DNA from: Muricea muricata
Taxonomy: Eukaryota > Cnidaria > Anthozoa > Malacalcyonacea > Plexauridae
NCBI GenBank assembly: GCA_963855995.1
Contig: OY979722.1
Coordinates: 5,022,001 to 5,086,000, forward strand
Length of the DNA: 64,000 nt
Direction of reading: 5' to 3'
Shown here: positions 2,683-46,800 of the stretch, piece after piece
Layout of the letters: the number at the start of each line of letters is the position of its first letter
Position numbering within the stretch: the stretch's first letter is position 1
The notes under the pieces: model-generated
Told to the model about the DNA's origin: nothing
What the model saw: only the letters and a program-made list of their open reading frames with translations
The model's database searches: none
Program-made: the position numbers and the translations under genes

Positions 2683-4089
2683 CTAACAAAAACAGTCACC
2701 ACCGTACGTACTTTCTGCCCTGCTTGAAGAACTCTCGACCAGATAATCATGAGTTTCCTCTTGACTTTTACACAACTCCAGTGAATACTTGGCAAGTTGT
2801 TTCAGCAAGTCATCGACTCCTTGTCGCGTCTTTGCTGATGTCGAAAAACATGCGATCACATTCTTTTCAATCTCACGACGCAAAGCTTTTTCTTTTTCTT
2901 CAGGGATAGTATCACTTGAAACGGGCAAGTCAATCTTATTCTTAACTAGAATTAGTTTTGCCGATGGTTCATACAGCTTGACCATGTTGGCGATCCCTGA
3001 CAATCTGTGTAATGAATACTCGTCATCTGCGCCATATACCAGCAACACAAACTTGCTTCCTCTGTAATAAGACTGAGTCATACTTTCATGTTTCTCCATA
3101 TCAGCTGTATCCCAGATTTCCAACTAAAAGTAAGAGATATTTATTACATTACAGGGATTGTAACAACTTTCATACATGCAGGCTGGATTCGATAGTATAG
3201 TATGATACTGTAAAATCATGTGATATCATATATAGTCAACCACGAGACATAGTCTGGAAACTCAGCCAACGTCTTTGTTCTATCTTTTTATTTGTTTTTA
3301 TACTGACTTGGTATACAGGCTTTATTAAAAAGTAGACAAATGTGAAATCGCTCTCTACTACTTCGTGAAACGCTTCAAGGTACGGAAGTTTTTATTAATA
3401 GGTTGTTTTGGGTACTTACTGTACAATGCATGTGTAATAAACAGAAAAAATGAGATATTGAAAACTTCGATATCGTGGGGGGGGGGGGGGGGCGGGGTTG
3501 TGTCTGTTCCAACAATTTAAATATGGCTTACGTGCGAACATGGGGTTGATAATTAATTGTCGGGTGGTGTATTCCTGCGCTAACTTTCAGAAAATATGCT
3601 TGCGTCTAAGCTGTTCAAATGATCAAAAAATATAACTGTTACTTTTATAATCGTTTATATATATACAAATTACTGCAAATTAAAGAGAGTGCATCTTTTT
3701 CATTCTTTGTTGACTCCAGATTAATGCAGATGTCTGACTCCGTAATTCATGATTTTTGAAAAATGCACCAAATGGCACTGGCCACGGAACTCGGTGCAAT
3801 TTTGTAAAGACTGAATTTTTCACACAACATATAAAATCGTACTTTTTAATCTTACCGGTATAATGGTTTCATCGTCCTCCAATATTTCCTTGTGTGTGCG
3901 TTTTGACTCGCGGATAATCATTTTTTCTTTGCTGAAACCTAACTTAAACATTCGTTTAAACAGACTAGTTTTACCAACACCATATACACCGGCGAAAACC
4001 ACTTTGTAAGGTCTCGTAGGACTATCGAAAAGTGCACGAGTCTTCTGGACATCGAGTTGTCTTGAAAATTTTTGATGTCTCTGTTGCAA
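2683..4089 (-). CDS. Ras/Rab-like small GTPase A (divergent G3)
   Basis: Two minus-strand exons: 4089-3856 (open to about 4089) and 3123-2683 (stop TAG). The donor is CCG|GTAAG and the acceptor TTTTAG|TTGGAA. Exon 1 has the P-loop GVYGVGKTS. Exon 2 starts LEIWDTADME (G3, with Asp replacing the usual Gly of DxxG) and continues with VKNKID (G4) and TSAK (G5). It ends in a basic-poor tail with CFC, a Rab-like XCXC double-prenylation motif, so membrane attachment is expected. The intron position is identical in GTPases B, C and D of this window. No in-frame ATG occurs upstream of the P-loop in exon 1; the position of the paralogue B start codon here reads as a non-ATG codon. The start is therefore in an unseen upstream exon, non-AUG, or lost. 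Function is unknown; signalling or trafficking is inferred from the family. Confidence 0.75.
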
Positions 4090-5211: not shown

Positions 5212-5655
5212 TCATCCTTCCTCGTACATCTGCTTTTTACGTTTCCTGACTTCTTCAATATTGTCAATCTCAACCTTCAATCCCTCTAACTGAATTCCAA
5301 TCTCCAAGAACTCCTTTTCCAAGCGTTTTTTCATCCTTCCACATTCAAAGTCTTCCAGTACGTCCAAAAATCTCTGGTCGGTAAAACAATGTAGCAAGAC
5401 GCGTAATGAACCAGGTTTAATGTCTCGAACCTCTTGGTCATCTCGCTCACCGCCGAGGCCCCGAGAAACAACGCCGTCCATTGATTTTGCTAATAACTTA
5501 TAACCGGCGTATAAGGCACCCAATGAAACCGCAGTGATACATAAATCTCTCACCGATTGAGCACTGTCACTACTGATGGTAATTAAAATGCTACCGCCCC
5601 ATGAAACGCTGGCATGAAGAGCCTTCCTTGCAACTTCAGCTGCTGAGTCTTCCAT
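5212..5655 (-). CDS. Small membrane protein with TRADD-N-like C-terminal domain
   Basis: A 147-residue single-exon frame with ATG at 5655-5653 and stop TGA at 5214-5212. A good acceptor (ATTTCAG) lies about 15 bases before the ATG, so an upstream non-coding leader exon is likely. Residues 17-27 are mildly hydrophobic, and residues about 38-57 form one convincing membrane helix. The C-terminal half contains DIKPGSLRVLLHCFTD, then a GRMKKRLEKEFLEIGI segment and a charged helix to the end. The pattern of a GSL-plus-hydrophobic strand, an L/F-rich helix, GR, EFLEIGI, and a terminal strand and helix resembles the TRADD-N family found in cnidarian and bacterial immune proteins, which is often coupled to membrane segments. 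The family assignment is from memory of the motif and needs a profile search. It lies between GTPase A and the channel-NACHT-LRR gene, all on the same strand, so a shared role in innate immune signalling is inferred. Confidence 0.6.
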   Translation of the reverse strand: MEDSAAEVARKALHASVSWGGSILITISSDSAQSVRDLCITAVSLGALYAGYKLLAKSMDGVVSRGLGGERDDQEVRDIKPGSLRVLLHCFTDQRFLDVLEDFECGRMKKRLEKEFLEIGIQLEGLKVEIDNIEEVRKRKKQMYEEG

Positions 5656-9168: not shown

Positions 9169-12100
9169 TTAATACATGGTCATTGTGAATCTGGGTCGGT
9201 TTGGATTTTGCCTTGCCCCAACTGCCAAGGATTCGCTCACAAGTTTTTTATCTTCCTTGGTAAAATTGTTACCAGATAGCATCAAGTTAACAATCTTGCA
9301 ATTGCTGCTTTGAAGTCCCTCGCAAAGGTATTGCAAGCCGGTTTGGTTTATCTCGTTGCAGGAAAGGTCTAGCGAAGTAAGTTTGCAGTTTGCGCTTTTT
9401 AATGCATAACAGATGTGTTTCATGCTCAGGCCACCGATCTTGCTGCTAGCAAGATCTAGTTTTTTAAGACTACAGCTTTCACTCTTCAAAGCATCGGATA
9501 GAAGCTTGATACCACGATCTTTCATTTCATTTCCACCCACTGACAAACTCTCCAATCTACTGCTGTTAACACCTGTGAGGCCATGGTACAAGCACTCAGC
9601 ACCTGCATCACCTATCGTGTTGGCTGAAATATCCAATTTGGTCAAAGTGCACTCGTTGCTCCTCAAAGCATCGCGTAGAGGCTCGATGTCACGAGCCTTT
9701 AGACCATTTCGTTTAAGTGCCAGATGAGTTAGTCGAGTTCTCCCTTCTTTTAATAAATCACAAAGGCTTTTTACTCCTTCATAGTTTATGTCGTTTTTAC
9801 CAAGGTCTAAATCGACTAGCTCGCAATCTTCGTGTTGCAATGCTGCACAAAGTGCAATCACTCCTTCGTTTCTTATTTCACACTTATAAAGATTAAGTCG
9901 AGTGATGTTGCAGTTACTATGAACAAGTGCTCTGCTCAAGGCTTTTGCCCCTTCTACCATTATTGAATTTACACGGAGAGATAAACTAGTTAGATTTAAC
10001 TGTTTTTCTACCATTGCATCGCACAGACTTTCCACACCCTTCGCTGTTATTCGGTTTAGGCTGAGGTGCAAACCCATTTTCCTGCGAGGTTCACCGTTTA
10101 TGTTATCACATAAGATTTGAATACCTTCATCGTCTAGCGAGATGCGGGTGAGATCTATGTTGGTAAGAATCCGATTTTTATTGAGAAGTGTTGCAAGACC
10201 AAAGCAACCGAGGCCAGAAGTTTGCCGATTCTCAGAAAGTGTTAGCTTGGTTAAAAATGGGACAAAAACCAGGAAGTATAATAATGCTGTGCTGTCGATT
10301 GATGTGATGTCCAGTCCAGAAAGATTGCATACATTATTCGGCCCACCTCCATCCAATTCTCTTCCACACATTTTCATCATGTCATCATCTTGCATTTCGT
10401 GTAGGAATTTGATAACAAGAATTGCTAATCTCTTTTCATTCTTGTAAGGATTCGCAGCTATCCTGCCTGCCCTCTTGGCATCTTTGATTTCTTTGTAAGG
10501 TGTTAGGGAACGAATCCACTGCAAAAGACTGCAAAAGAGGAAAAATTAACCAAAAATTCCATAAAACTGATAATCAGACTTGTCGCAAAGAGAGATTTTC
10601 GTAATTTTATTTTGGAATTAGACAGTAGAAAACGAACTACCTGTTCAGGATTATGATGAAAACATTGCATTGCCTTGCATTGAGCAATGTTTTGTCGCCA
10701 ATATTAATGAACTTTGCCAACAATAAAATTTAACCATTTATTCCATGAACTCGAGTCATGTGTGATATTAAACTGAATACTAATGATTGAAAGGAAATTA
10801 TTTCAAAAATTATAAACTTCCGTATATTTGACACCTTTTTCCAGGCAAAATTTAAAATTTAAAGAACTTCAAATACTTTCACTTCAAAGTTTGTAGCTTT
10901 TCAGTGTAAAATTTTAATAGCTAGTTCTAGGCCTTTTACTCACGGTCAGATCAGCTGATAGCAAAAAGAATATTGTTGAGCATTAATCGACGTGTAATCG
11001 GATGTAAAAATTTTGAACAATATTTTTGGACAACATTGAAAAATGCTGACAGCAAAATGTTGTTCAATTCTCAGCCCTGAAAAGGTTTTTTAATATGGTG
11101 TGCCCCAATTACATACAACAGTTGAAATCTTTGTGTTTCATAGCCTCAAGATATTTTGCGTATGCTCTCCGCTGGCAATAGGAGAGTGGGAGAAAATTCA
11201 ACCTTCCTGATCAAACGTTGTAATGCAATAAGATTATTCGTGACAACGTTAACGCTCAAAAATTCGAGTAATAACAAATTGGGAATTTTATGCATACAAA
11301 ATGACCTAAAATCCGACTATAGCCCTTGTCTAAACACTAATAATATCAATAGTGTACTGGATACAAAAATTTCACTGGCTTACAACGTTCAGATTGGGGG
11401 AAATTTGCTCTTTTGAACCAACGTATTGAATGCCTCATGAAGTATTATGATGTTGTTTTTAACAAGGGTAAATATTGCACAAAACATACCTTTGTTTGGA
11501 AGCATACCTTTCAGAAAGAGTTTCCTTTGGTACATCTATCTCCTTATTTCTTATTTTTTCTCCCAGTAAACCAAAGACAAATTGCATAACCAGATGCCAT
11601 TTTGGCTCCTCCTGGTAATTTTTCAGAGAACAAAGAAATTGCATGACATCGCCAATATCCCTCATTTTGTCAACCATATGCTGGGCAGCAAGAAACTCTT
11701 GAATCGTTGTGTGAAAAAACCGGTAGTATCCTCCCCTTAACGGAGTAAGTAGACCACAACTTACAATCCGTTGGGAGATGTCTTTAGCTTCGAGCTGAAA
11801 ACTCACTTCACTCAATTCCAACTTAGATTTTGCTAGCCTCTTCAAGGTTTCCATATACTTCTCAGGCGTTTGTGGTATGTTAGATGTAAGGTAACCTCTT
11901 GTCCCAAATGTGTCTCCGTACTTTTGTGTTTCCCAAATAATTACTCTAATGGCTCTTTGATAAAGCTCAGTAATCGTCTTTGGAACAAACATTGCAACAT
12001 CTTTGTCAGTTTTTGAGCGTTCGAAGCATTCTTTTAAAGTTAAGCACACGAGGTCACATACTTGAGGTAGATAACATAAACTAAAGAATTCCGGCTGGCT

Positions 12101-13789
12101 TTTAACGGTCTTCCAAATCTTAGCACACGTGTCCGTTTCTGATAAACGGCAAAATCCTTTCACGTAATTTTCCATATCTCGTCTACAGAAACCTAACAAC
12201 TCCAGCTTTTTCTGGAAGGTAATGCTAATTTCATTAGAAATGTTTTCTGCTTTATCACGTCTCGAAGTTGCTATCACGGTAGCGCCTGGAAGAAACTGAT
12301 CTTTCAGCAGTTTTCTAATAATTGTAAGCATCGACATCGGCTTTTGGTAATCGTCCGTGGAATCGTCATCCAGCTCTACCGAAAAGGTGTCCATGTTATC
12401 CAAATCGTCAAAAATTAGAACAACTTTCTTCGGATTTGCTAAAATGAACTGATAAAGTTCTTCAAAATCTAATCCGGATGGCATTCCCTTTGCTTGCCTC
12501 AGCATCTTCTTCAGCGTTGTGGACCTATCCTTTCTAACTGTTTGAAATGTGAGAAGAAATACAATTCTGTTTTCTAAGAATTCACATTTAACCCATCGGT
12601 AGAAAAGAGCTTTTGCAAATGTGGTTTTTCCAATTCCAGTGCGACCAACGAGGAGAATTTTACCACAAATTTCTAGGATTTCGGAATTGCTGCTCGCGTT
12701 AGTCGCAGAATTGTTACCAGTGTAACTGACAGCGCTGTTTGGTGAGCTTTCACAATTAACGTCCTTGAATGGCAGCAGATGTACTAGACGATTCTTTACC
12801 AAGTCCTGGTCTTGGCCGTGGTATAAATGAACATTATAAATCTCATGTCTTCGGAAGCTTTTCCTTTCGATTTCTTCATGAATCAAAAACTGGAATCTTA
12901 AATCGTGTAGCCTGTAAGGCTCTCGATACGACTTAAAATTTGAATTTCGATCAGCGAGCACTAGAAAGTGTTCCTCTTCCATTAATGTCTTTCGAATACG
13001 CTTCAAAATTTGCCGAATTGTTACGCTTCGTTTCTCAAGCAAATAGATGAAACAGAATTCGACGTCGTTTCCAAAATCGTTGTCCCGGCGATAACGGTTT
13101 AGCACATATACGACCTCTGCTACACCAAAGGCAGCAATAACAAAATCTATAACAAAAACGGAGGTCGCTAATGTGTCGAACTTCGAACCCAAAGGGTTGA
13201 CGCACTCCACAATGGTAAGGTTGGATCCATCGTTCAAATTTTTGAAGTTTGTAACCTGTGATGTGTCTTGTGGCCACTCGCACTTAAATTGTACGGCCGG
13301 AAAGCTGGCTGAGCCAAGTAGTAAAACAAACAAGATTAAAGGCGCTAAACGAGCGAGGAATAAGTGGATAACGTACAAAGGAAATACAAAGACTTGGGCG
13401 TCACGTAAATTGTCTAGCTGCCACGGTTCCTCCATGTTTTGACTGGATAACGTGTCAAATTTCTCGACTTTAGAATTAACAATGCCAGCATACGCGACGG
13501 AGATCAAAAGTACTAGACCGAAATTTATAACGATGAATCTGCTCACTGGTATAGAGGGATGGTGTTTCTTTTCATAGCTAATGTAACACCTCATGGTCAC
13601 ATAGTTCTTTGCCACTAATTCTGCAGCGATGGTCTCATTCGGGTTGCAGCGGAAATCGTCTTTCTCTTTCAAATCGTATCCAACTCCGATCAAAATGGCA
13701 GCCAACACAAACGTCACTGCTAGAATGATGCGGCCGTATTTGTTGTAACTTTTGGACGAGAACGGGATAAATGGCTGCCAAAGATCCAT
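9169..13789 (-). CDS. Four-TM channel-like / NACHT / LRR fusion protein
   Basis: Two exons, 13789-11490 and 10528-9169, join in frame (phase 2; AAAG|GTATG to TTTTGCAG|T) to give about 1,219 residues. The ATG follows an acceptor (GTTTCAG|ATG). Residues 21-38, 84-104, 135-163 and 208-231 form four membrane helices. The two outer loops each carry two cysteines (C48/C68 and C170/C196) and N-glycosylation sequons (N51, N190). This is the topology and cysteine pattern of pannexin/innexin and LRRC8 pores. A NDVEFCFIYLLEKRS segment after helix 4 resembles the cytosolic helix that follows TM4 in those families. The NACHT domain has Walker A GRTGIGKTT at 382-390, Walker B VVLIFDDLDNMD at 456-467, the ATSRR sensor at about 507-511 and a winged-helix region ending FFHTTIQEFLAAQ. 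Exon 2 holds 12 or so 28-residue ribonuclease-inhibitor-type LRRs. By analogy with LRRC8, the NACHT and LRR parts would be cytosolic. Predicted role: membrane NLR sensor, possibly an ATP-switched pore. The channel assignment is inference. Confidence 0.85.
10529..11489 (-). other. Intron between the NACHT and LRR exons
   Basis: Donor at 11490/11489 and acceptor at 10529/10528, about 0.96 kb. No other exon seen. A second GTATG donor occurs 18 bases inside the first exon (after 11508) and would keep the frame. Confidence 0.7.
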
Positions 13790-16318: not shown

Positions 16319-18283
16319 TCAACTACAACAGCTATGACCTGTCTTGTTCCTTTGATTAACCTCATGCAATCTCAATGAATCAAGGCTATCTTCATTCCTT
16401 TGCTTTTCAACAAACAATTTCAATGAATACTTGGCAAGTTCTTTCAGCAATTCATCAACTCCTTTTGGCGTCTTTGCTGACGTCGAGAAATGTCCGATTA
16501 CTTCCTTTTCCATGTTACGACGAAAGGCCTTTTCCCTTTCTTCAAGTATAGTATCACTTGAAACGGGCAGGTCAATCTTATTTTTAACTAGAATTAGTTT
16601 TGCCGAAGGCTCAAATACCTTCACATTACGAGCAAATTTATACAAACTGTACATTGAATTCTCGTCATCTGCACTATATACCAGTAAAACAAACTTGCTG
16701 CTTCTGTAATAAGGCATTTCATATTCATCAAAATCTGTTTTATCGCAAATTTGTAACTGAAGGTGAAAAAATATTATTTTGTTAAATTATAGGGATTATA
16801 CATAGCAACATCTATATATGTTGCATTCTAGCTCTGCACCGAGGTAATTATATAAATATTTGTTGAATCACTGATAGGAAAATGTGATTATAATAGAAGA
16901 TGTATACCTGGAAATTTTAAAGTACAGGAAGTTGTCCCCCCCCCCCCGTGGCTTACCTGGTTATTAATGGCTATAAATAAGCAGAATGTTAACAAACGTT
17001 GTGTACTGTGCTTGGTAGTATTTAAGCATTAATTGTAAGTCGTACTTAAATGCTGGAAAATAGTTGCACTTAGTGAGTTTTTAGAATAAATCCAAAAAGG
17101 CTATTTTGAACCTAAAATTTAGCAATGTAATTAAAATCTTTGCCGAAAAACATGCTTAAGTATTCGAAAATTACTCAGTAATGTGAGAGCACATTGTACC
17201 CAAATAGCTAATGAATTATTTCATGTACACAATGGTGTCTTTGAAAAAATAAGTCGCTAGAATGCGATTCTTTTAGGCAAGTGTTTCTCTTATTGGCAAA
17301 GGTAACTCCAAGATCACACTTACTCTATGTTTTAGTCTGTTGGTTGACGCATCCTGCGATATATCAGTATTTCTATGTAAGTAGATACAGTCGGTAATCC
17401 AAATACTGTCCTAATAAAAAAATCTGGGTCTTCATGATATAAAGCAAAAAACATCAACATTTGGTTTCTGATTTCTGGATTATGGATTTTGAAATAAAAT
17501 ATTGCAAAACGTTTCGCCTGAAGGTAATAATTTACATATATTATACCTCAAACTTAGCTCGTCCAATCAAAATGTTCTATTAGTAGCACGTGTCCATATT
17601 ATTTTTCGGCGAATACCATCCAATAGGAAATTCTGACCTTAGGTTTTTTCCCGGAGGCATGGTAGGGAGATTCGACTTTTGAATAATTTAACGCGACACG
17701 CGCCGATTAACATCAATGAAAAATGGCGGGAGCACACAAGAGTATATGGATATTCTACAGTATTTTTAAGTGGTTATTTATTCTAAAAACTCACAAATTA
17801 ATGCTCCTGTTTTTCAAACATTTGGGTAAGACTTACGCACAGGTACCTATGCAAAGATAGTCATGATAAACCAGGTAAGCCATTTTTGATGGGGGGGGGG
17901 GGTGTCTTTTTTTAGCACCCACCTGTAATTTCAAAATTTCCAGGTTTACATCGATTATAATTACATTTTATTGTCAGTGTTTAAAATAAATAAGGGGGCT
18001 CTTTTTCTTAGGAAACCCCTGTATTTTAAATTTGATTCAAATATAAAATCGTGTTTTTCAATCTTACCGGTATAAAGGTTTCTTCCTCGTCAAGTATTTC
18101 CTCGTGTGTGCTTATTGACCACTTGGGAACGTGCGCCGTTTTTTCTTCACTGAATCCCAAGTTAAACATTCTTTTGAACAGACTAGTTTTCCCAACACCA
18201 CGTACACCATCGAGGACAACCTTGTGGCTCCTGAGCTTTTTATAATTTGCACGAATCTTCTGGACATCGACTTGTCTTGACAT
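16319..18283 (-). CDS. Ras/Rab-like small GTPase B (degenerate switch II)
   Basis: Exon 1 18283-18068 and exon 2 16756-16319 give 217 residues. The ATG at 18283-18281 (MSRQVDVQK) is the only in-frame ATG before the P-loop. An upstream AACAG acceptor and an out-of-frame ATGTGA precede it. Motifs: P-loop GVRGVGKTS, NKID and TSAK are intact. The G3 region reads LQICDKTDFD, where the family has L-x-I-W-D-T-A-G-x-E, so both the Trp and the invariant Gly of DxxG are gone. The C-terminus is HSCCS, probably prenylated. Donor and acceptor match A and C exactly in position. It may be a GTP-binding protein with impaired hydrolysis or a non-switching paralogue. Confidence 0.75.
16757..18067 (-). other. 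Intron of GTPase B
   Basis: 1.3 kb, with a C-tract near 16938 and a G-tract near 17890. No other gene seen. Confidence 0.6.
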
Positions 18284-22438: not shown

Positions 22439-23494
22439 TCAGCACCAACAGCCTTTCTCATTCCTTTCATTACCCTCATCAAGTCTGAAATGATCAACGT
22501 TCTCTTCATCATCACTGCATTCCCTTTTCCTTTTAAACAGTTTCAATGAATATTTTGCAAGGTATTTCAGTAGTTCATCAACTCCTTGTGGGGTCTTTGC
22601 TGACGTTGAAAAATTTGCAATTACTTTCTTCTTAATTTCACGACGAAAAGCTTTTTCTTTTTCTTCAGGGATAGTATCACTTGAAACGGGCAAGTCAATT
22701 TTATTTTTAACCAGAATTAGTTTTGCCGATGGTTCATATGCCTTCACATCATCAGCAAGCCCAGACAATCTATGTAATGAATACTCGTCAACTGCACTAT
22801 ATACCAGCAACACAAACTTGCTGCCTCTGTAATAAGACTGAGTAATACTTTCGTGTTTTTCCATGTCAGCTGTATCCCAAATTTCTAACTACAGAATAGA
22901 TAAAAAATTGTTAAATAAGGTGATGACACTATCTACAAACAAGTACAAGGGGGGGGGGGGGATTTTGAATATTAAATGAATGTGCTAATTAGAATCATTC
23001 TAACATTCTGGCACTTTATCTAACACAAAAATTACATGATTGAAGTTATGCCGGATGGGTTTTTGGAGGATTAACCCTCCTTAAGAAATGCCTGGGGAAG
23101 ACATTTCGTAAACAAAATGAAAGAAGACATTTCGTATCTGTAAGCACAATAGAAACCTCACAAGAAGATCACAAGAAAATAAAACGTTTCCAGGCGCTCT
23201 CAAAATGGTCAAACAATAATATATAATAAATTATTCTTATTACAATATTCTAATTAATTAAATAAAATTAATATGTGTTCTTAATCTTACGGGTATAATG
23301 GTTTTATCATCATCAAATTTTTCCTGGTGTGTGAGTTTTGAGTGACAAAACGGCTTTTTTTCTTCACTGAAATCTAATTGGAACATTCTTTTAAACAAAC
23401 TAGTTTTACCAACACTATACACGCCGGCGAAAGCGACCTTATAAGGCCTCCTAGGTTTCTTATAACTTTCAAGATCATTCCCATTCTCTGCCAT
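22439..23494 (-). CDS. Ras/Rab-like small GTPase C (DTAD)
   Basis: Exon 1 23494-23291 (ATG in TAAATATGGCAG) and exon 2 22888-22439 join at CCC|GTAAG and TTCTGTAG|TTAGAA, phase 0, giving about 217 residues. The P-loop is GVYSVGKTS. Exon 2 opens LEIWDTADMEKHESITQSYY, so Asp again replaces the DxxG glycine as in GTPase A. VKNKID and TSAK are intact and the tail ends KGCWC, an XCXC prenylation signal. It is very close to A from IWDTAD through NKIDLPVSSDTIPEEKEKA, pointing to recent duplication. It is the most 5' member of the minus-strand cluster. Confidence 0.85.
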
Positions 23495-31793: not shown

Positions 31794-31800
31794 GTGAAAC

Positions 31801-34800
31801 ATGGAGGAATTGTTTCAAACGGCCCCCGAGGTTCCAGAGCACGTTGCGGCCGAAGTTCAAGGCATTATTCCCGAGTGGGTAAATGGTACACTGCTTAGAA
31901 ACGCTCCGGCAAAATACGAATTTGGAAAGCATTCTTACAAGCACTGGTTCGATGGCTTGTCTCTCCTGCATGCCTTCGTAATAGAAAAAGGCCAAGTGAG
32001 CTATCATAGCAAGTATTTGGAAACGAAAGCTTTCACGAAAGGCAGCGATCAACAGCGAATACCTTACGCGGAATTCGGGACTGCGCAGATGCCCGACCCT
32101 TGCCAAAGCATATTCTCCCGCTTTTTCTCCTATTTTTGGCCGCCCGAGCGAACTGACAACACTGCAGTGAATGTTTTTACCATGAAAGGGAAAATTTTTG
32201 CGAATAGCGATTCGCCGTTCATGAATGAAGTGAACCCACACACGTTTGAAATCCTTGATGTGGCGAATGCGAAGACCGATATCAAAAGTACGTAATGAAA
32301 TTTTTAATATTGTTTTGATTACAACTCTCCTTTTAAGCTAAAGTTGTTTATCAGCCGAAGTTGAAGGCTGGATAATACTTCATGTTATGCAAAAACCGAA
32401 TTCAATAATTGGTTTCAAGGCGTTTGGTTGTGTTTTTATTTCATTTTTGTTGGGTTTTTTAAAAAACTTTCTCCAAAAATGTGCGAATAATCGCAGCCAA
32501 TATAAACGAATCAATATGTGATCGTCGTCATGGTAATATGGCTCAAAAACGCGTCCATTTTTTTTCATAGTGGTTCGTTGACGCCATTTTTCAAATTTGG
32601 TCCGCTATTGAGTTGATATTAAAAATACTAGATGCGCGACCAGGATTCATAATAAAGTTTCTGGAACGTTCTCTGATCGATAAATTTATTAAAACACGAG
32701 CTTTCGACTGCCAGTCTGCAGTCTTCAACATGTAAATAATACTAGGTTTGAACTACTTGGACAGTGGTTTACAATTACAATGACGTACAATAATGATAGG
32801 TAATCCCGCCTACGTAATCTCTTTTAAGCGAGTGTTCTTATATATATGAAGACTATGATTGTTTCTTTAACAAAAACCTATATTGTTCTGGTAAATGTTG
32901 CGCGTTGTTGTCGGAATTTAGTGTGGTTGGCATAGGTTTTTGTTAAAGAAACAATCACAGTCTTCCTATATATAAGAACACTCGCTTAATAGAGATTACG
33001 TAGGCGGGATTACCTATCATTATGGTATATCATTGTAATTGTAAACCACTGTCCGAATAGCTATATCCGTAGAATAGTTTCAAACTTAGTATTATTTTAG
33101 TATTTACCTGTCGAAGACTGCAGACTGGCAGTCGAAAGCTCATGTTTCAATAAATTTATCGATCAGAGAACGTTTCAGAATCTTTATTAAGTTGATATAA
33201 CAACTTCCCAGTTCACTGTTAACCGATCAGGGACGAGCAATATTTTAACTTGCATGCACTCATCGCAAAACCAGTTGCAAGTTCCATGTGAATGTTTACA
33301 GTAAACACAGTTTACATGTAAGTAATAACTATCTAGTGTGACAGCTGTCGTTACAATCACAAACAGTGAGTGAAAAGAATCGGGAAGAAAAGCCAATAAA
33401 TTAGACCTATAGTAGCTTCGATCTATATACGACGCTAAAACATAGAGTTCACTGGTACTCATTCTTATGTCCATAGCTTCCAGGCTAGTATACGCCTGCG
33501 CTCACCCGCACGAGGAAAGCGATGGTAACGTTTACCACGTCATGACATCGGTTGGCCGACAATCCCTTTACAACATCGTGCAAGTACCCCCCGTGAAACG
33601 AGCTAATCACATCAAAACTGAAACCCCCCTGGAAGGAGCGAAAATCGTCGCAAGCATCAAGCCCCACAAGAGTACGACGTACTATCATAGTTTTGGCATA
33701 TCTCCCAACTATTTCATCTTCGTCGAGAATCCGTTCTGTATCAACACTTTTCAGGTGTTGCGAATGAAGATTGACCAAACGTCTTTCCATGAATGCATGC
33801 ACTGGGATCCAAAAGAACCTTCGAGGTATGTTGGAACTGCATCCAACCCATAGATATCTCATATACGCTAGATAGCGCATCTTTATATCAAAAAGTGAAG
33901 CCAAAATGTCAGCGGTATCCCCTCATAACAATAGGCGGCAGCCATATTGGTCGTTCCCACTCGTAAAAAAAAATCCTAAAAATCCTACAGAAAACACTAT
34001 ACTTTTCTGCATTTGTGTATTAAATACTTTTGAGCTGCATAAAAGAGGACTTATTGTCAACTTTGTCCATTTCCGCAATTAAAAATACACAAATTATCAT
34101 GCTCCGTGTCAACTCTGTGGGAACGACCAGCACCTGTGGTCCGGCTTCAATTTTCGCCTGCCCACAGTGTGGGATGCACCATCTTGTGTATATGAGATAT
34201 CTATGATCCAACCTTGGCACGTCGGTCCGCTGTACTAAACTACACGCATAAAAAACGCCACAGGCTTGTTGCAAGTTGTCAATTTTATCGACTTGTTAAC
34301 AAATTGTAAAAAACTTGTCAATTTCAAGTTGCTACAGGTTTGTTAAAATCAGGCTTGTTGTAAGTTGCCATTTGCAGACTTGTCAAAAAATGCAACAAGC
34401 CTGTGCGTGAATAGCAAATGTTGAGTATCGGCCTCTGAGATCAGCTTGCGACAAGTGAGAAAAACGTGTGGGACAAAAATATGATAAAAAGCTGTGAGAC
34501 GCAAGCATTTTTAAAATCTATTGTTAACTATTTGGAAAAAAGGAAAAACTGAAATGGCAACACAATCGTTTCTTTCTTGAGTATTTTCTAAACTAAGAAT
34601 GTCACTTTTGTGTTGTGGATTGTTGTATAAAACGTGCATACGTATATACCTACCGTATAGCCCCGTTTGCACGAGCGAATTTTGTGTGGTAATTCCTGTG
34701 CGACGAGTTTTATTTACTCGTGTATACCAGGCCATTTGATGGGATTGTCGAACAAAAATAGCTCATTGTAAACGGGGCAGTCGGACCTTGAGTGTTATGA

Positions 34801-37364
34801 TTGGGGTTTCGGCAATTAAATGTCCCTTTTCGTAATTGATTTCAGGCAGAAACGATAGAGTTAGAGACAAAATTGATATTTTTGAATTTGGTCTTTCTCT
34901 CGTCACAAGTTGTCAATAAAGCCACGATGTTCATACTTATTTTACAGATTTTATTTGGTCGAACGTAGTTCTGGCGCATGCGTAGGAAGCTACGAGGCGC
35001 ACAGTTTCTTCGCATTTCATCACGTCAACGCGTATGAGGGCAGCGATGGTTTTGTGGTGGTAGATTTGTGCTGTTATCCCGACGCTACCATCATAGACCA
35101 GTTTTACCTCCATCATCTGCGCAATTCCAAGCTGGACAAGGTAATATTCGATTGTGATGCTTATGTAACACACCATCTCAAACCCAAACTCGAGTCCGTG
35201 GCTTTTTCATGCAAACTTATAAGATCGGTAGCAATCATCATGAAGTATCCGTGGATAGCGTAGAAATTATAGATATCCTAGAGTGCGTACTCCTATCTTT
35301 TTGACTGTGAAAGATTTGTCTCCGAAAAATGGGGGATTTCGAAAGGCACATGCATGCACAAGACTCCCATGGGAAGGAGTTTTGCAAGTTTGAGAGGTGT
35401 CGCGATTGTCTTTGAAAGTGAGTATTAAAGGATGGCAAATATTTTTAAAAACAATTCCACAGTACGACTGCCATGATAAAAACAATTGGAAAGAAAACAG
35501 AGCGTTTTTTAAGAGATTAATTTGAGAGACATCAACCCCTCGTATAAGCAATGCGACCGAAAAAATATAAGCATCTTTTATACGCCAGTAACGTTTTTAC
35601 CACTCTCTCTGACTGCCACTGCAGTGAAAACTAATTTTGATACCAACTAATAATTATTTATAATACTTTTGGATTTTTCTCTATTGTTGTATTTTAATGT
35701 GGCCTCGCACGCGTCTCGTAAACAACTCTCAGTTATGTTAATTAGTCTATTTATAAATATCAATTACTAACTGGGTGTGTCCTTCGCACTTATATAATTA
35801 CATCACTATATTAGTAAAGAATTCTAATCCAAACAAAGGCAAAGCTATTTCCTTGATAGCCCGACTATGCAATTTCCAATTTAGGTTGGTGAAAATTTTG
35901 CTGATCCAGAGGTGAGACGATACCGTCTTCCGATACCTGGCAAAGCCGGTTCTTCTTGTTCGCACACCCCCCGGTTATCATACGAGATCCTTGGTACTGA
36001 CCTTGATCTACCTCGCATCAACTATCGTTTCAATGGCCAAGATTACAAATACATTTATGGAACAGGTTGTTAATATGCATTAGGTGCAACGTGAATGGTA
36101 GAGGCCCGAGAATAATTTCCCAAACTGAATTAGTCACGCATCTTATGTATACAAAGTCAGTTCAATATTTTGTGTGCCCTAGATAAATGTTTTTTCACGC
36201 TCTGCTTGTTTTAAGTTGTGGCAACACGTTGTTACAAGGTTCTTTCAACAACACTGATACAATCATGGTACCATAAATTGTTTCTTAAAAGTATGCGCCC
36301 TGCTAATTTGAGGGGGGCGGGGCGTTTGCTTTCGAGGGACGCCTACTTTCGAGTTTTTCTTTCGAGCATCGGCCAAGTTAAATCCACACTGAAGTATACA
36401 GCTAATTGCGTTAAGGTTGTCCTATGATAAAAGGTGAAAGCCGAAAGTACGATGGTTGTTATTATTTAAATAGTCATCTCGCAATTCGTTATGTGGAAAA
36501 CCGTGACCAGAATGGCTAGTGATGTTAATGCATGCGATTTGTATTGAATGAATGAAATAAACTTAAGCGACCCCCTGTTGACCATAATCCATCGTACTTT
36601 TCGCTCGTGGCTTTTACCTTTTAGCTTTATCAGAGGACAACCTTAACGCCATTAGCTGTATATGGTTTACATGTGGTTTAGAAAGCTTCTTTGCCTTTAC
36701 ATTACTCTCTTTCAAGGGGGGGGGGGGTTTCTTTCAAGATTCCACATAATTTCGTTACAGCAGGCTGTATCAGATTTGCTACGACAAACTTGTAACAAGC
36801 AACACAAGTTGTTGACGCTATCTTTACTTGCCCTGAGCTAGTGTTTTATGCAGGAACAATATACAACTGACATTATCATTTTCGATTTTTAACCTCTAGT
36901 CCTAGAAGACTCTAATTTATATTGCATCATGTTCTTATATTGCTCCTGCTTTTTTGAATAACTGAATTATTAATATCGGTATGTCTGCTGTTCATTCTTA
37001 CGCAGGTCCCCACGAGCACGGCCACTTCCTTGATCAGTTGGTGAAGTTGGATACGGTTACAAAGTTGAAGAAGACCTGGTACGAATACGGATGCTTTCCG
37101 TCCGAGCCTGTTTTTATAGAAAGGCCTGGGGCCAAGGATGAGGACGATGGCGTCGTCGTGTCGGGTGTTGTCGGCACGGGCGATCGGCAATCTTTCCTAC
37201 TCGTCTTGGATGCTGCAAGTTTTACCGAACTGGCAAGAGCAACTATTCCATGCCGCCTGCCACAGTCCTTGCATGGGAATTTCTTTCCTGATCTCACATA
37301 TAAGCTGGATGCGTTCCATGCGAACAAATCTGGGCCGAAACTGCATGCTGAAGACACCCAATAG
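31801..37364 (+). CDS. Carotenoid cleavage oxygenase (BCO1/BCO2/RPE65 family)
   Basis: Five exons: 31801-32287, 33477-33825, 34948-35140, 35885-36065 and 37006-37364 (TAG). They sum to 1,569 bases, or 522 residues, the usual family length. Early motifs include PEWVNGTLLRNAPAKYEFGK and HWFDGLSLLHAF. The four iron-ligand histidines are recognisable: ACAHPHEE, YYHSFGIS, FFAFHHVNAYEG and LHGNFF, along with conserved acidic residues such as NAYEG. The enzyme cleaves a carotenoid double bond oxidatively, giving retinal or apocarotenoids, and is likely cytosolic or mitochondrial. BCO1, BCO2 and RPE65 types cannot be told apart by eye. Donor 4 (GTTGTT) is weak and intron 1 acceptor use is set by phase. 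A frame of 62 codons starting at 31694 with one strong membrane helix overlaps the start in another frame. Introns hold several mobile elements. Confidence 0.92.
32620..33189. mobile_element. Large foldback element with hammerhead-like core (2)
   Basis: A 570-bp palindrome in intron 1 of the carotenoid oxygenase gene. Arms of about 240 bp run outward from a loop near 32885-32935; for example, AGGTTTTTGTTAAAGAAACA near the loop matches the other arm inverted. A 9-bp direct repeat AGTTGATAT flanks it (32611-32619, 33190-33198). Near each outer end is GACTGCAGACTGGCAGTC followed by GAAAGC, preceded in the right arm by CTGTCGAA, one base from the CTGANGA box of a hammerhead ribozyme. Confidence 0.75.
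33849..34205. mobile_element. MITE with 8-bp target duplication, 357 bp
   Basis: Ends CATAGATATCTCATATAC and GTATATGAGATATCTATG are inverted repeats. ATCCAACC flanks it at 33841-33848 and 34206-34213. It begins 24 bases after exon 2 of the carotenoid oxygenase gene. No coding content. Confidence 0.9.
34243..34409. repeat. Palindromic MITE-like repeat, CAGGCTTGTTGCA type
   Basis: CACAGGCTTGTTGCA at the left and TGCAACAAGCCTGTG at the right are inverted. The interior carries further ACTTGTTAACA and CAAGTTG motifs as at 15750-15965. Confidence 0.6.
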
Positions 37365-38890: not shown

Positions 38891-41444
38891 ATGTCCAAGG
38901 ATGCAAATTCAAGCGGCGAAGATGGTTCAAGTAATGACGAATACGACGAGACAAGCACGCCGGAATATTACTATAACAAAAGTAAAATACCGACCTACAA
39001 AGTAATACTGATAGGGGATGTCGGCACGGGCAAATCTAGCTTGTTTTGGCGGTACAAATACGGCGCGTTTGGCAAGGCGACCACGCTACCGGGCACGGAT
39101 CGATTCCAGAAAGAATTTCTCAACGACAAAGGCGAGAAAGTGCAGGTATAGTTTTATGTCCATGTTACGCTTTTTCTTTGTATTATTTACTCAGTCGTCT
39201 CAGTGTAATATGAACATTAGCTGCTTGGCGGTGTTGGACTGTTAGTCGTACAGATGCGAAAAAACAGTAACTTCCTAGCAAGCGAGCATCACTAATTGTG
39301 TTTTCTTGTACTTCTGTGAGGTACCACGATATTCGACACGACATTCAACACGACATTCAACACGACATTCAACACGACATTCAAAAGCCGTACGCGCTCC
39401 AGCTACGGCAAACCAGTGCGATGTTTAGTTTTACTTGAGGGCTTGAGTGGACGAGCAATGTAAAGGAAATCGATTTCATACAATTTTCATACAATTTCGC
39501 TATTTCAGGGCCATGAACACTACCATGTAAGAGGATTCTTGGTAGGTGATATTCCATGAAAACCAAATTTTTAGTCTTCGGAGAAAATGTAGCAATTAAC
39601 GGTCGCAAATGCCCACTGCGTAATTTTCTGTGAATTTCAGAGGTGATAAATGGAATAAGTAAACTTCCTATACTATTAGACATCGACTGCAAAGTCTATA
39701 CTCTAACACTCGACCATATTGTTGTCTCAGACATTCAGACAACCTAAACGAAAGCATGTGCATGCATATGGCATATTATTCTTATTATTATTATTATGCA
39801 TAGTATTATTATTATTATGGCAAACTCGATCGCTTGACTGGTATAATAAATGTGCCTTGAATGGGAAGTGCTTCAAGTGCCGATGTCGCCACCGAACCGC
39901 ATAATAACCATTTCTGTTAATGATAAAATTATCATGTAGGTCTACTGTACATGTATATTGCCAGTTTTACCATTTGATTTTACTGATATAAACCACAGCA
40001 GGAGCAAATAAACAAAGAGCTTCTTATATATAGAGTAATTAATTCCACAATAGTAAAGTTCACTCTATTCTGCAGAGGCTTTTGAGGTATTAGTGCCTTT
40101 TCATTGTTTTACATGACGTTTCCAAATATGTTGAAGCTCACAGAGGATCATGTGTAAGACTACATACACTGCAAAAAATGAACAACTTGTTCGTGGTTGG
40201 TGAGAAAAGTATTGGACTGCAGACATTGTTGAACAATATTGTTGCATCTGAATCGGGTGAAACGATGCTGAACAATATTGTTGACAACATTCAACAACAT
40301 TGGCAGCAAAACATTGCAAGCAGTTGCTCACTGTCTTAATTTTTGGCTGTGTACACAGCAAAAAACGAGCAACCTGTTCTGGCCTGATGAAAACATGTTG
40401 TTCTGGCTTGAAGAATGTTTGCTGCCAACATTGTTCGACTTTGTCAGCAATGAGGTGTAACAATGCTGAACAATATTGTTGACAACATGGAACAATATTG
40501 GGAGCAGAACATTGTTTAGTGCTGTTTTCATCAGTTCAGAACAGGTTGTTCGCTTTTAGCTGTGTAATGAAAGGCACTTATGGTACTAAAGGTAACTTAT
40601 GAAACCAAAAAGCCTCTGCGGAGGAGTGGTGAAAGTTAATGTTTCTTAGGCTAGGTTAATCACCTAAATGTAGTTTATCTTCAATATTGGATGCTTTAAT
40701 TTGCTTACTCTGTTGGCATTTTTCAAAGAAAACTTGTCATAAACGAAAAACTGAGCGTGGACACCTACAGCTTATAGATAAGTGTCTTCTTAGTGTAGTT
40801 TCTTCCGCATTTCTCTCCGTTCCCCTCCCCAATCACAATTTTGCTGAGCAGTTTGTAGAGAAAATGTAGCAGCTTTAAATTGGAAATTGGAACGAAAACA
40901 TTGAAAATCGGGGGCGGGGATTAAATTTATCTTAGATGTCATGCTTCAGGGCTGTCAGGACTAATAGTTTAGAAAATGACAGTACGTATTTTGTTTTATA
41001 TAGATGATACTATGGGATACAGCAGGTATGGAGAGAATGGGATCCCTTACTTTCCACTATTATCACGGAGCACACGCAGTGATCCTAGTGTTTGCTTTAA
41101 ATGACTCGAACACATTCGACTCGCTTGGGACATGGGACGAAGATACTTCGCGTTATTCCTCTAGAGAAGTGAAACGATTCCTGGTAGCGACAAAATCAGA
41201 TGTCGAAAAGGACCAAATAGACGTCCCGAAGGCGAAAATCAATTCGTTTTGCAGGAACAAAAATATTTCCGAAGTTTACTACACTTCGGCAAAAACGGGA
41301 GACGGGGTCGAGGAAATGTTTGAAAGTGTCATGAAATCACTGTCAGGTTCTATCGTTGACAAACAGTCTCAGGAAGACATCTGGCTGCTCGGTGCGTTTG
41401 CGTCTAAAGACTCCAAAACAAAAAAGAAAGGTTGCCGTTGTTAA
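38891..41444 (+). CDS. Rab-like small GTPase D
   Basis: Exon 1 38891-39145 (ATG) and exon 2 41004-41444 (TAA) join at GTGCAG|GTATAG and TATATAG|ATGATA, phase 0, giving 231 residues. An acidic N-terminal extension of about 35 residues precedes the P-loop GDVGTGKSS. G3 is canonical (LWDTAGME), G4 is TKSD in place of NKxD, and G5 is TSAK. The tail is lysine-rich and ends GCRC, the Rab XCXC double-geranylgeranylation motif. The intron lies at the same place as in GTPases A-C, so this is probably a less derived relative on the opposite strand. A role in vesicle traffic or membrane signalling follows from the family. Confidence 0.88.
39325..39384. repeat. 12-bp tandem repeat, five units
   Basis: Four perfect copies of CACGACATTCAA (39337-39384) follow one diverged copy. 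It lies in the GTPase D intron. Confidence 0.9.
39776..39822. repeat. ATT microsatellite
   Basis: Interrupted ATT triplet run in the GTPase D intron. Confidence 0.8.
40166..40566. mobile_element. GAACAATATTGTT-rich MITE-like element
   Basis: The left end ACACTGCAAAAAATGAACAA and the right end in reverse complement TACACAGCTAAAAGCGAACA are related inverted ends. Two direct subrepeats share GCTGAACAATATTGTTGACA at about 40267 and 40462, and an internal copy of the end lies near 40350. Located in the GTPase D intron. Confidence 0.55.
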
Positions 41445-43846: not shown

Positions 43847-46800
43847 TTAGCAGCTACAAGCAAGGCAACAACTGAAGCAGATTGCAAGTGCTGCAATGAG
43901 AGAAAAAATTGCCACAAAGCCGATCTGCCAACGAAAATATATCGTAATCTTTTCCATTATGTTGATCAAACATCCACCATGAAATATGTCATCTGGTCTG
44001 AAATTCTTTCCACAGTTGGACACTTCAACTTCACAGCAAGAATCAGGTACAGTTTTGTTGTCAAAATTGCTATTCCTTTGCCAGTCGGATGGGCCCTCCA
44101 CTCCACAACATTCCAACTTTTGCTGAATGAAATCCAAAACTGCATCTGTGCTATTTATCTCACCTAACATATTCTTCTTTATATCGGATTCCAATTTATC
44201 GCTGTCATATCCCTGGACACTGTGGCTTAGAATACCAATCACAACAATGATCATGATGAAAGCAATCAGCAAGAAAATGCCAGAGCATTTATCACAGCAA
44301 CAGGCAATGGTGGCAGATATGCACAAAAAGACTCCGATGGCAATCGCGAGTTGATAAACTGGCAAGAATTCATGATCTGTGACATCTTCGACATAGAAAA
44401 GTATTGGATCTAGCTTCTCTGGGTAATAGCCGAGTACAACTCCCCCTGCAATGAGTAAGATACCAAGAATATTGAGGAACACTGCACAGCATATGGTCAT
44501 TTTTGAAGGTCCTTCACCCTTTGCACCTCCAGGCGCGGATCCAGACCGTGGCGAACGTGGCTTGAGCCACGGTCAGATTTTTCCACTTTAAAATATTCCG
44601 GGTTGACCTTTTTCATGATATTATTTAAATTAAATATTTTGCCCTATATTCATTATGCATACCTCGGGCAACGGTTTCATATTCTATTTCGTTAATTTCT
44701 TCTCTCGTGTGAAATTGGATTTCGATTTCGTATCAAAAACGAAAAAACTACCGAAATAAATAAAATGTATTTTGCCATTTGAAAATATAATAGTTCAGTT
44801 AACACTGAACTATATAACTCGCTTGAATCAACCTGATTTTCAGGGTCTCCAGACCGCCCGCCCGTAATATGAATCTGCGATCACAACTTTGAAAAGCCAC
44901 GGTCAGCATCCATAAAATTGCGCAATGGTTACTAAATATAGCAACTTTTTGCCACGATCAGCCATGGTGCAGCGTTGCAAACCAATCACAGGGTAAGCTT
45001 TAATCACGTGAGCCACGGTGAGCCACGGTGGCTGTATTTTGGTTGCGCAATGCAAATCATCTTGTTGATACTCGATCTTTGTTATTCAATTGAGTTCGTT
45101 ATATATCGAAGTTTTATTCTAGCGAGATGGCCGCTTTCCGAATAATTGATGTCTTAAAGCAGCTCGTTGAAATCTTTCAACATGTAAAGACGAATGAGAA
45201 TATTTCAGGGGAATTGTTGTTAGTAAGGACGAGTAGATGCGCCTTGTAAAGTCTGGCGTAGGAAATATATCTGTGCGCACGTGTGGGTTTTCAAAGCTGC
45301 AGTTCCCGAGGAGCCGACTTGAAAGATCTGCGCTTAATGTTCCTGTTAGGTAAGAATTTTGAATCGAGCTAATTTGAATATACTAACAATTATTCAAATG
45401 ACACTAGTAATTTTATTCGTGTGTAAATTTTATCAGTGAAATTTAATATAATATTAACGAAGCTCGGTTCGAACACATGGCGGCTCTCTGCTCGGACAAT
45501 GGGCTAGCATGCAATCATACTATCATCGATTTTTTGAATTCAACTATTTAACAGTTTAATTTATTAATATATCAGTATTTTCATGATGCGGCTTTATAGG
45601 ACTGACTACAAGTCAGTGTTGGCTGTCATAAATTGTTTAATTGTGACATGTAAACAATGCCATTTTGGGGTTGAGTTTATTAGTATAAACCCAATATTAT
45701 AGTTAACTTACTATTTAGCAGGCAAAAAATATGTCTTAATACTGTTAGCACTTTTTTCTATATTGTATTGAATAATGCAAAATGGCTTGATTGTTTTACC
45801 CCCAGGTGACAGAGTGTTATAATGTAATCATTAAAGTAAAGTTATTGACATATAGTGCGCTAGAAAATCCTTGTAATTCTTTACTGACTTAAAATATTTT
45901 TAATTATCATTCCTATCGACTAGTCACTACTTCACTGATTCAGTCTTACTCTAGTGTATGACCTCACCTCACTAAGCCACATGTTAAGAATGACTGGAAA
46001 ATTTATATCGATTAAGTTTTATTGCTGCTAATTATTGATAATGATGTGATTAGTATCATAAACTTTGCTCTTTAGCTATGGGTGCAGTTTGTGCACCCAT
46101 ACTGTTATATCTTTTTTTACAAGCCGAAGCTAACAAACAATTAGGTGTGTGCTTCAGAACTATATACAATAAGCATGGTTCTTCAAATCAACTGGGCCTG
46201 CTAGTTTAAACTAGGCAGCCAGTTTCATTGTCATTTCTGAATAGAAAAGCAGGGTGCCCATTCAGCCTGGATGAAAAGTGTATCATACTGTACTGTACTG
46301 ATAAAAATAATGTAAATTTATAATTGATACCTAAATGCTTTTTGTTAGTACTTTAGCTAATGGAAACTATCTCTTTAATGCATGTTCTATTGCATTAACT
46401 GGGAATGAGAGTTTGTCAAATTACTTGAGATGCCTCACAAGTATAGAATTGTTTGAGAATTGAAAGTACTATGCCAACCATCCCCTTATTGAATACCAGT
46501 ACAGAAACAGAGCATTCACTTCACTTAACAATGCCTTTGCAATGTGTCTATCTGATGCAACCCTTACATTTTTGAGCAGTGAATGACAATGAAATTGAAT
46601 ATGTCTATTTCTTTCATTCTGCTTCAATGCCTCAGTGCTATTTTGTTGATCAAAAAATTCCATCTACAAAGTCAAAGAATCATTTTGTTGCCTTATGTCA
46701 ACCAGTTAAAGCTTTTCAGCCTGGAGTGCATTATTTTAAGCCACACCTTCCAACCTTACTACTGTCTGCCAAGCCAGTTCATTGTAAAGTTGCTCACATG

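Follow-up and report, generated by a model that had tools for sequence, protein, structure and literature searches.

Connexins, to our knowledge thought to be exclusive to chordates, combine four hydrophobic helices and a short N-terminus with outer loops that each carry three cysteines, and the statement that they 'arose de novo' is found in the literature. A survey from 2022 recognized connexins in chordates only (PMC8769644), and Slivko-Koltchik 2019 describes connexins as acquired late and marks Hydra, its cnidarian, as being without them (PMC6391747). The N-terminal domains of animal NLRs are CARD, DD, TIR, HEPN, and others according to excerpts of a survey of cnidarian receptors (PMC8260672); these excerpts report 35 Pfam domains alongside NACHT in 15 cnidarians, name HEPN, CARD, DD, ZU5, glycosyl transferase, NB-ARC, WD40, TIR, and transposon-type domains as partners, and describe TMHMM as applied to TLRs and CTLs. 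Here, we describe a gene within a stretch of 64,000 nucleotides of the anthozoan Muricea muricata (contig OY979722.1, positions 5,022,001 to 5,086,000; the whole stretch is called the window). Its predicted product begins with a four-transmembrane (four-TM) head that is very probably homologous to connexins and continues with a NACHT domain and an array of leucine-rich repeats (LRRs).

The heads of this protein family share several traits with connexins (PF00029; Cx50, Cx46, Cx43, Cx36, Cx26, and Cx32): a matching order of four hydrophobic helices after a short N-terminus, outer-loop cysteines in register with the first and third connexin positions, and aligned stretches after the first extracellular loop (EL1) and before TM4. 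They differ from connexins in that each outer loop carries two cysteines rather than three, the second loop is rich in N-glycosylation sequons, the domain is fused to NACHT and LRRs, and the host is not a chordate. The remainder of the protein follows the usual animal NLR order of NACHT, an HD2-like region (which scores below the Pfam cut-off), and LRRs, whereas the place of the N-terminal domain is taken by the connexin-like head. LRRC8/VRAC (PF12534) also joins a four-TM domain to cytosolic LRRs, a parallel that an earlier note on the window, made from the sequence alone, had drawn. The layout is indeed alike, but the TM part belongs to another family in profile tests, and the likeness is one of layout only because a NACHT sits between head and LRRs. 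In plant resistosomes such as ZAR1, the NLR's own N-terminus becomes a membrane pore, which may be a functional parallel; there, however, a soluble coiled coil inserts on activation, whereas the head described here would be a permanent multi-pass membrane domain. Among the papers listed in searches of the open literature (5.39 million papers; preprints and most subscription papers lie outside), none describes a connexin-NACHT fusion in its title or abstract start, and the excerpts of a 2026 ion-channel survey contain nothing on such a fusion (PMC13183375).

Connexin likeness of the heads

The head of the window protein displays four hydropathy peaks and two outer loops with two cysteines each (C48/C68 and C170/C196), as the earlier note had described. 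Its relatives within the 453 Mb genome were collected in two alignments: A1 contains 22 head copies, many of them close, with the linker included, while A2 is trimmed and contains 17 heads, namely 11 of the 22 A1 rows (11 close copies dropped) and six more, including the partial L041 and L042. Identity to the window head falls as low as 19% in A2. All four cysteines are invariant across the 17 aligned heads. Outer loop 1 contains two cysteines in each of them and outer loop 2 in 16 (four in L014).

The A1 profile retrieved only TMEM9 (E-value 0.64) and a connexin (4.1). The connexin signal was brought out by A2, which is more diverse and trimmed: among 177,635 distinct PDB sequences, its profile retrieved 27 at E ≤ 10, without exception connexins, being variants of about seven connexins and not independent of each other (Cx50, 1.6e-4; Cx46, 6.8e-4; Cx43, 5.8e-3; Cx36, 6e-3; Cx26, 0.13). 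Single heads display the same preference. Pfam Connexin is matched by 12 of the 17 at E ≤ 0.1 and ranks first in 11 of these 12, led by the L043 head (E 1.4e-8; 35.3 bits versus a cut-off of 31.3), which has no other Pfam match and is the only head over the cut-off. It is followed by L042 (1e-6), L044 (4.3e-5), L032 and L028 (1.6e-4 each), L040 (4.8e-4), and L024 (5.2e-4), and more weakly by L017 (0.013), L012 (0.019), L015 (0.08), L041 (0.082), and L016 (0.097). Other weak Pfam matches occur among the heads, e.g., to UPF0182 in L032 (5.5e-4) and L042 (0.002). In a phmmer search of PDB, the L043 head ranks Cx32 first (0.0029; 17 matches, with unrelated proteins from 0.14 on), and the window head matches the L043 head directly (C15:10579620, E 1.1e-6).

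In the reverse search of the whole genome with Pfam Connexin, 20 candidates were scored, of which 18 matched at E ≤ 1. Heads of this family occupy the first 16 ranks (2.1e-6 to 0.059), with only the top match over the cut-off; compared by eye, 15 of them adjoin a NACHT match and one is the head at C12:12562077. The last two matches (0.44 and 0.6) are at chance level, and no free-standing connexin over the Pfam cut-off was found in this search.

When A2 was compared with three connexins together by hhalign, the profile-to-profile alignment of 194 columns reached a probability of 96.5%, with E 9.9e-10 for the single comparison; the four head cysteines align with the first and third cysteine of either connexin loop. 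The eight-head sub-family of the window reached 95.4% over 202 columns, and A2 scored 90–93% against single connexins. For three profiles, the real scores lie above all 200 local column shuffles (67.5 versus at most 45.5, 60.4 versus 36.6, and 42.0 versus 33.4), and LRRC8, tetraspanins, and reversed connexins obtained 0.5–13.2%. With HMMER, A2 gave 23.2, 16.3, and 26.4 bits for connexins, values equalled by block shuffles in 0, 1, and 0 of 2000 each, compared to −5.6 and −3.7 for LRRC8, 1.2 and 2.9 for tetraspanins, and at most 2.3 for reversed connexins.

Two cysteines per outer loop are the pattern of pannexins and LRRC8, and LRRC8-type genes occur in this genome; on the layout of the head, the earlier note had proposed a pannexin/LRRC8-like pore. 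The profile search that it suggested led to connexins as relatives, and not to pannexin, innexin, or LRRC8. Both candidates were rejected in hhalign: pannexin-1 reached 6.0% with A2 and 0.7% and 1.4% with the other two of the three profiles, and LRRC8 0.5–0.9% overall (0.5% with this genome's own LRRC8). Moreover, Pfam searches with the 17 heads returned neither Innexin (PF00876) nor Pannexin_like (PF12534) at E ≤ 10, none of the 27 PDB matches belongs to these families, and the genome's PF12534 and PF00876 matches coincide with no NACHT match when compared by eye. A pore of the pannexin, LRRC8, or innexin type is thus very improbable.

Several observations weigh against a connexin assignment. 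The three-cysteine loop typical of connexins is not found, the middle cysteine of the aligned connexins being absent from both loops. Five of the 17 heads (window, L010, L011, L014, and L047) have no connexin match, and four of these five belong to the window's own eight-head sub-family. The window head alone has neither a Pfam Connexin match at E ≤ 10 nor a PDB match; its only weak Pfam match is Ninjurin (0.1–0.18), and its AlphaFold model has a predicted local distance difference test score of 43 and is unusable. The nine heads outside this sub-family reach 79.0% over only 82 columns in hhalign, the two halves of the family score 38–93% and 1–40% against single connexins (with 1.1% for the non-window half against one of them), and one of 200 connexin shuffles gave 87% probability against A2. 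Half-family HMMER profiles are not significant against the three connexins (E 1.7–16 and 1.9–560), and local shuffles equal their scores in 3, 14, and 5 and in 5, 129, and 13 of 1000 cases. Consequently, HMMER reveals the connexin link only when all heads are combined.

The weak split-half profiles, some of which are equalled by local shuffles, and the single shuffle at 87% would be expected if the likeness arose by chance or by convergence of a four-TM protein with paired cysteines. This explanation has little probability, since a search among 177,635 PDB sequences and its reverse in a 453-Mb genome single each other out, the hhalign score of each profile lies above those of all 200 shuffles, and tetraspanins, LRRC8, and reversed connexins remain at or below 2.9 bits where connexins obtain 16–26. 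We therefore regard homology of the heads to connexins as very probable; it is well supported at the level of the family, and the window copy is linked to connexins only through that family. Because the three-cysteine loops are missing and the window copy does not reach the Pfam cut-off, we refrain from classing the head as a connexin and call it a putative connexin homologue fused to an NLR.

Gene structure and the family of connexin-like NLRs

On the minus strand of the window, a two-exon gene is predicted from 13789 to 9169, whose spliced product of 1219 residues has its sole stop at the end. The frame of exon 1 runs uninterrupted from the ATG at 13789 to the donor at 11490/11489, so that head and NACHT share a single exon, in line with the earlier note. 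The NACHT (79.9 bits versus a Pfam cut-off of 26.7) is complete, with the Walker A motif GRTGIGKT and the Walker B motif VVLIFDDLD read from the window sequence, and the LRR array noted before follows it through the predicted in-frame splice 11490/10528, which reads AAG/GTATGT ... CTCTTTTGCAG/TC. The HD2-like region remains below the Pfam cut-off in paralogs as well (26.1 bits in L057 and 30.9 bits in L040). As CAG immediately precedes the ATG, a coding exon farther upstream was considered; however, the rows of A1, whose starts were chosen by eye, have a methionine at or near this position, and any upstream exon is for this reason taken to be 5' untranslated region, which is not proven.

The order of domains holds even without the predicted splice, since the window protein is collinear over almost its full length with intronless paralogs: residues 11–1202 align with 13–1132 of L057 (25% identity) and residues 13–1192 with 15–1182 of L055 (26%). 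Six long frames were scanned. In three of them, Connexin, NACHT, and LRR are all matched within a single open frame (L057, 1147 residues; L040, 1189; L055, 1235), the Connexin match being under the Pfam cut-off in each. Of the others, L043 (989 residues) combines a Connexin match over the cut-off (32.1 bits) with NACHT and has no LRR match, L045 (1382 residues) has the latter half of a head together with NACHT and LRR, and L050 (645 residues) has NACHT and no Connexin match. Together with the collinearity of the window protein, the three single-frame paralogs make the fusion independent of gene prediction.

When the genome was searched with 310 residues of the window protein, the head gave at least 47 matches at E ≤ 1 (best non-self E 1.3e-46), some of which are pieces of one gene. 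The genome contains 96 NACHT matches, and at least 36 of these are preceded by a head match on the same strand at a distance of no more than 4 kb; in 34 cases the distance is no more than 620 bases. Several of these 36 heads are split across open frames by introns or decay, and not all need be intact. NACHT-LRR proteins with such heads thus form a large family. The fusion of a channel-type head with a NACHT-LRR part, which the earlier note had put forward for a single protein, stands, whereas its singularity does not.

Four of the 47 head matches lie away from any scored NACHT (L047, L049, L048, and C12:12561849), L048 being a broken match. At L047:3010-3972 (C3:42645117), a head-like four-TM frame has no NACHT in frame, and the adjoining frames look retroelement-like by eye; it is possibly a free-standing or orphaned head. 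At L049:2226-4054 (C11:9333318), the first half of a head is closely followed by a helical/LRR part, with the remaining head and NACHT absent as if deleted. A scan of viral contigs with the A1 profile found no relative.

Ratios of nonsynonymous to synonymous substitution (dN/dS) were determined for 14 heads in non-independent pairs. Median values are 0.52 (21 pairs among seven C11/C1 copies), 0.63 (six pairs among four C14 copies), and 0.36 (three pairs among three C2/C5 copies). The tested heads, none of them the window copy, are under purifying selection, which suggests that their function is kept; the values are fairly high and would allow some sites to change fast.

Proposed mechanism and alternatives

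The 17 heads carry 34 sequons in 702 residues of outer loop 2 (in 14 heads) and three in 630 residues of outer loop 1, while none is found in their N-terminal and post-TM4 segments. This distribution agrees with a position of outer loop 2 on the outside of the membrane, as would be expected for a connexin-like topology. A point against this topology is the presence of six sequons in 558 residues of the middle loop, which is assigned to the cytosol, in four of the 17 heads.

Most likely, in our view, the family consists of ligand-gated, connexin-type hemichannel NLRs; the explanation as a whole, with its proposed steps taken as such, has a probability of roughly 0.6. The head would reside in the membrane, its two ends facing the cytosol and its two outer loops tied by disulfides, the NACHT-LRR part would hang into the cytosol, and subunits would assemble via the connexin-like head. 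Upon sensing of a cytosolic signal by the LRRs or the NACHT, nucleotide exchange may rearrange or cluster a ring of NACHT domains. This change may open, or assemble, a large pore, and the passage of ions, ATP, or Ca2+ would constitute the immune output. Fold, disulfides, oligomer, pore, gating, and immune role are thus all proposed rather than observed; we infer the pore function from family relationship and from the strict conservation of the outer-loop cysteines. Given connexin homology, a pore as effector is somewhat favored over other outputs.

The head might instead act only as a membrane anchor or localization module that places the NLR at the membrane, without forming a pore. In agreement with such a role, no residue examined proves a pore, the dN/dS medians of 0.36–0.63 are relaxed, and the heads diverge far in sequence. 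A plain anchor would, however, not need the four outer-loop cysteines, whose invariance in every aligned head argues against this explanation; we consider it unlikely, yet the most serious of the alternatives. True gap junctions, in which the NACHT-LRR part would regulate cell coupling or colony self-recognition, are suggested by connexin homology and by the genome itself, where no innexin over the Pfam cut-off was found in an exon-by-exon search (best 0.0139; absence unproven), such that another junction protein could serve. Against docking speak the lack of one of the three connexin cysteines in each loop and the sequons in outer loop 2 of most heads; N-glycosylation is said to prevent the formation of gap junctions by chordate innexin homologues, according to excerpts of the 2022 survey (PMC8769644). 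Given the abundance of sequons in outer loop 2 and the absence of the middle cysteine from both loops, the heads probably do not dock into gap junctions but would act as hemichannels, and a role in cell coupling is improbable.

The family bears on the open question of connexin origin, for which connexin-like heads in a cnidarian, found in both search directions, represent a concrete candidate source. Tentatively, and with less confidence than we place in the hemichannel itself, connexins may not have arisen de novo in chordates: a connexin-type four-TM domain could have been the built-in pore of an NLR in an early animal ancestor and have survived in cnidarians as receptor-channels with their own hemichannel output, whereas chordate connexins would descend from such a head or from a lost free-standing common ancestor. 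Among animal NLRs, the architecture is one in which a single polypeptide may act as sensor, switch, and membrane pore, a logic comparable to that of plant resistosomes, and it is present at no fewer than 36 NACHT matches in this genome.

Feature positions and neighboring genes

Table 1. Predicted features of the connexin-like NLR gene, with positions in the window.
Feature	Residues	Position	Strand	Basis or remark
Connexin-like four-TM head	1-240	13070..13789	-	hydropathy, family alignment, profile comparisons
TM1	21-39	13673..13729	-	hydropathy peak; preceded by N-terminal stretch of ~20 residues
Outer loop 1, C48 to C68	48-68	13586..13648	-	aligns to first and third cysteine of connexin EL1
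TM2	86-104	13478..13534	-	hydropathy peak
TM3	140-158	13316..13372	-	hydropathy peak; H142 and R147 near-invariant
Outer loop 2, C170 to C196	170-196	13202..13282	-	one N-glycosylation sequon; aligns to first and third cysteine of connexin EL2
TM4	211-229	13103..13159	-	hydropathy peak
NACHT domain	378-545	12155..12658	-	Pfam E 2.5e-22
NLRC4_HD2-like helical region	693-748	11546..11713	-	E 0.0007; 20.5 bits, below Pfam cut-off 33.1
Exon 1		11490..13789	-	ATG, connexin-like head, linker, NACHT, helical region; one open frame
Predicted intron		10529..11489	-	GT-AG; frame preserved
Exon 2		9169..10528	-	LRR array (Pfam LRR_6, 8 stretches, E 9.7e-30) and stop codon

Four pieces of Ras-family GTPases (2686-3120, 16322-16786, and 22442-22888 on the minus strand; 41004-41441 on the plus strand) make up a cluster of small GTPases in the neighborhood of the gene. 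About 10 kb separate two tetraspanin genes (43850-44572 and 53982-54815, minus strand), which are very similar by eye and probably represent a recent duplication. The window further contains exons of an RPE65/carotenoid-oxygenase-type gene (31798-37361, plus strand) and, at 5215-5655 on the minus strand, an open frame of 147 residues with no Pfam match at E ≤ 0.001, which resembles N-terminal segments of other anthozoan NLR-like proteins.

Elsewhere in the genome, LRRC8-type genes (PF12534), described mainly from chordates, account for 12 matches at E ≤ 1 (best 1e-50), among them C11:12643604 and C4:16032157 as well as L058 and L059. The single weak innexin match, L039, resembles a DEG/ENaC-type channel by eye. 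A cnidarian origin of the genome, called into question by the connexin match, is likely: a COX1 match on contig C74 has no stop and is 87% identical to a hexacoral-like COX1, compared to 75% for human COX1. A second copy of COX1 on a nuclear contig (C1:38414782-38416095) contains one internal TAA and is likely a mitochondrial insertion.

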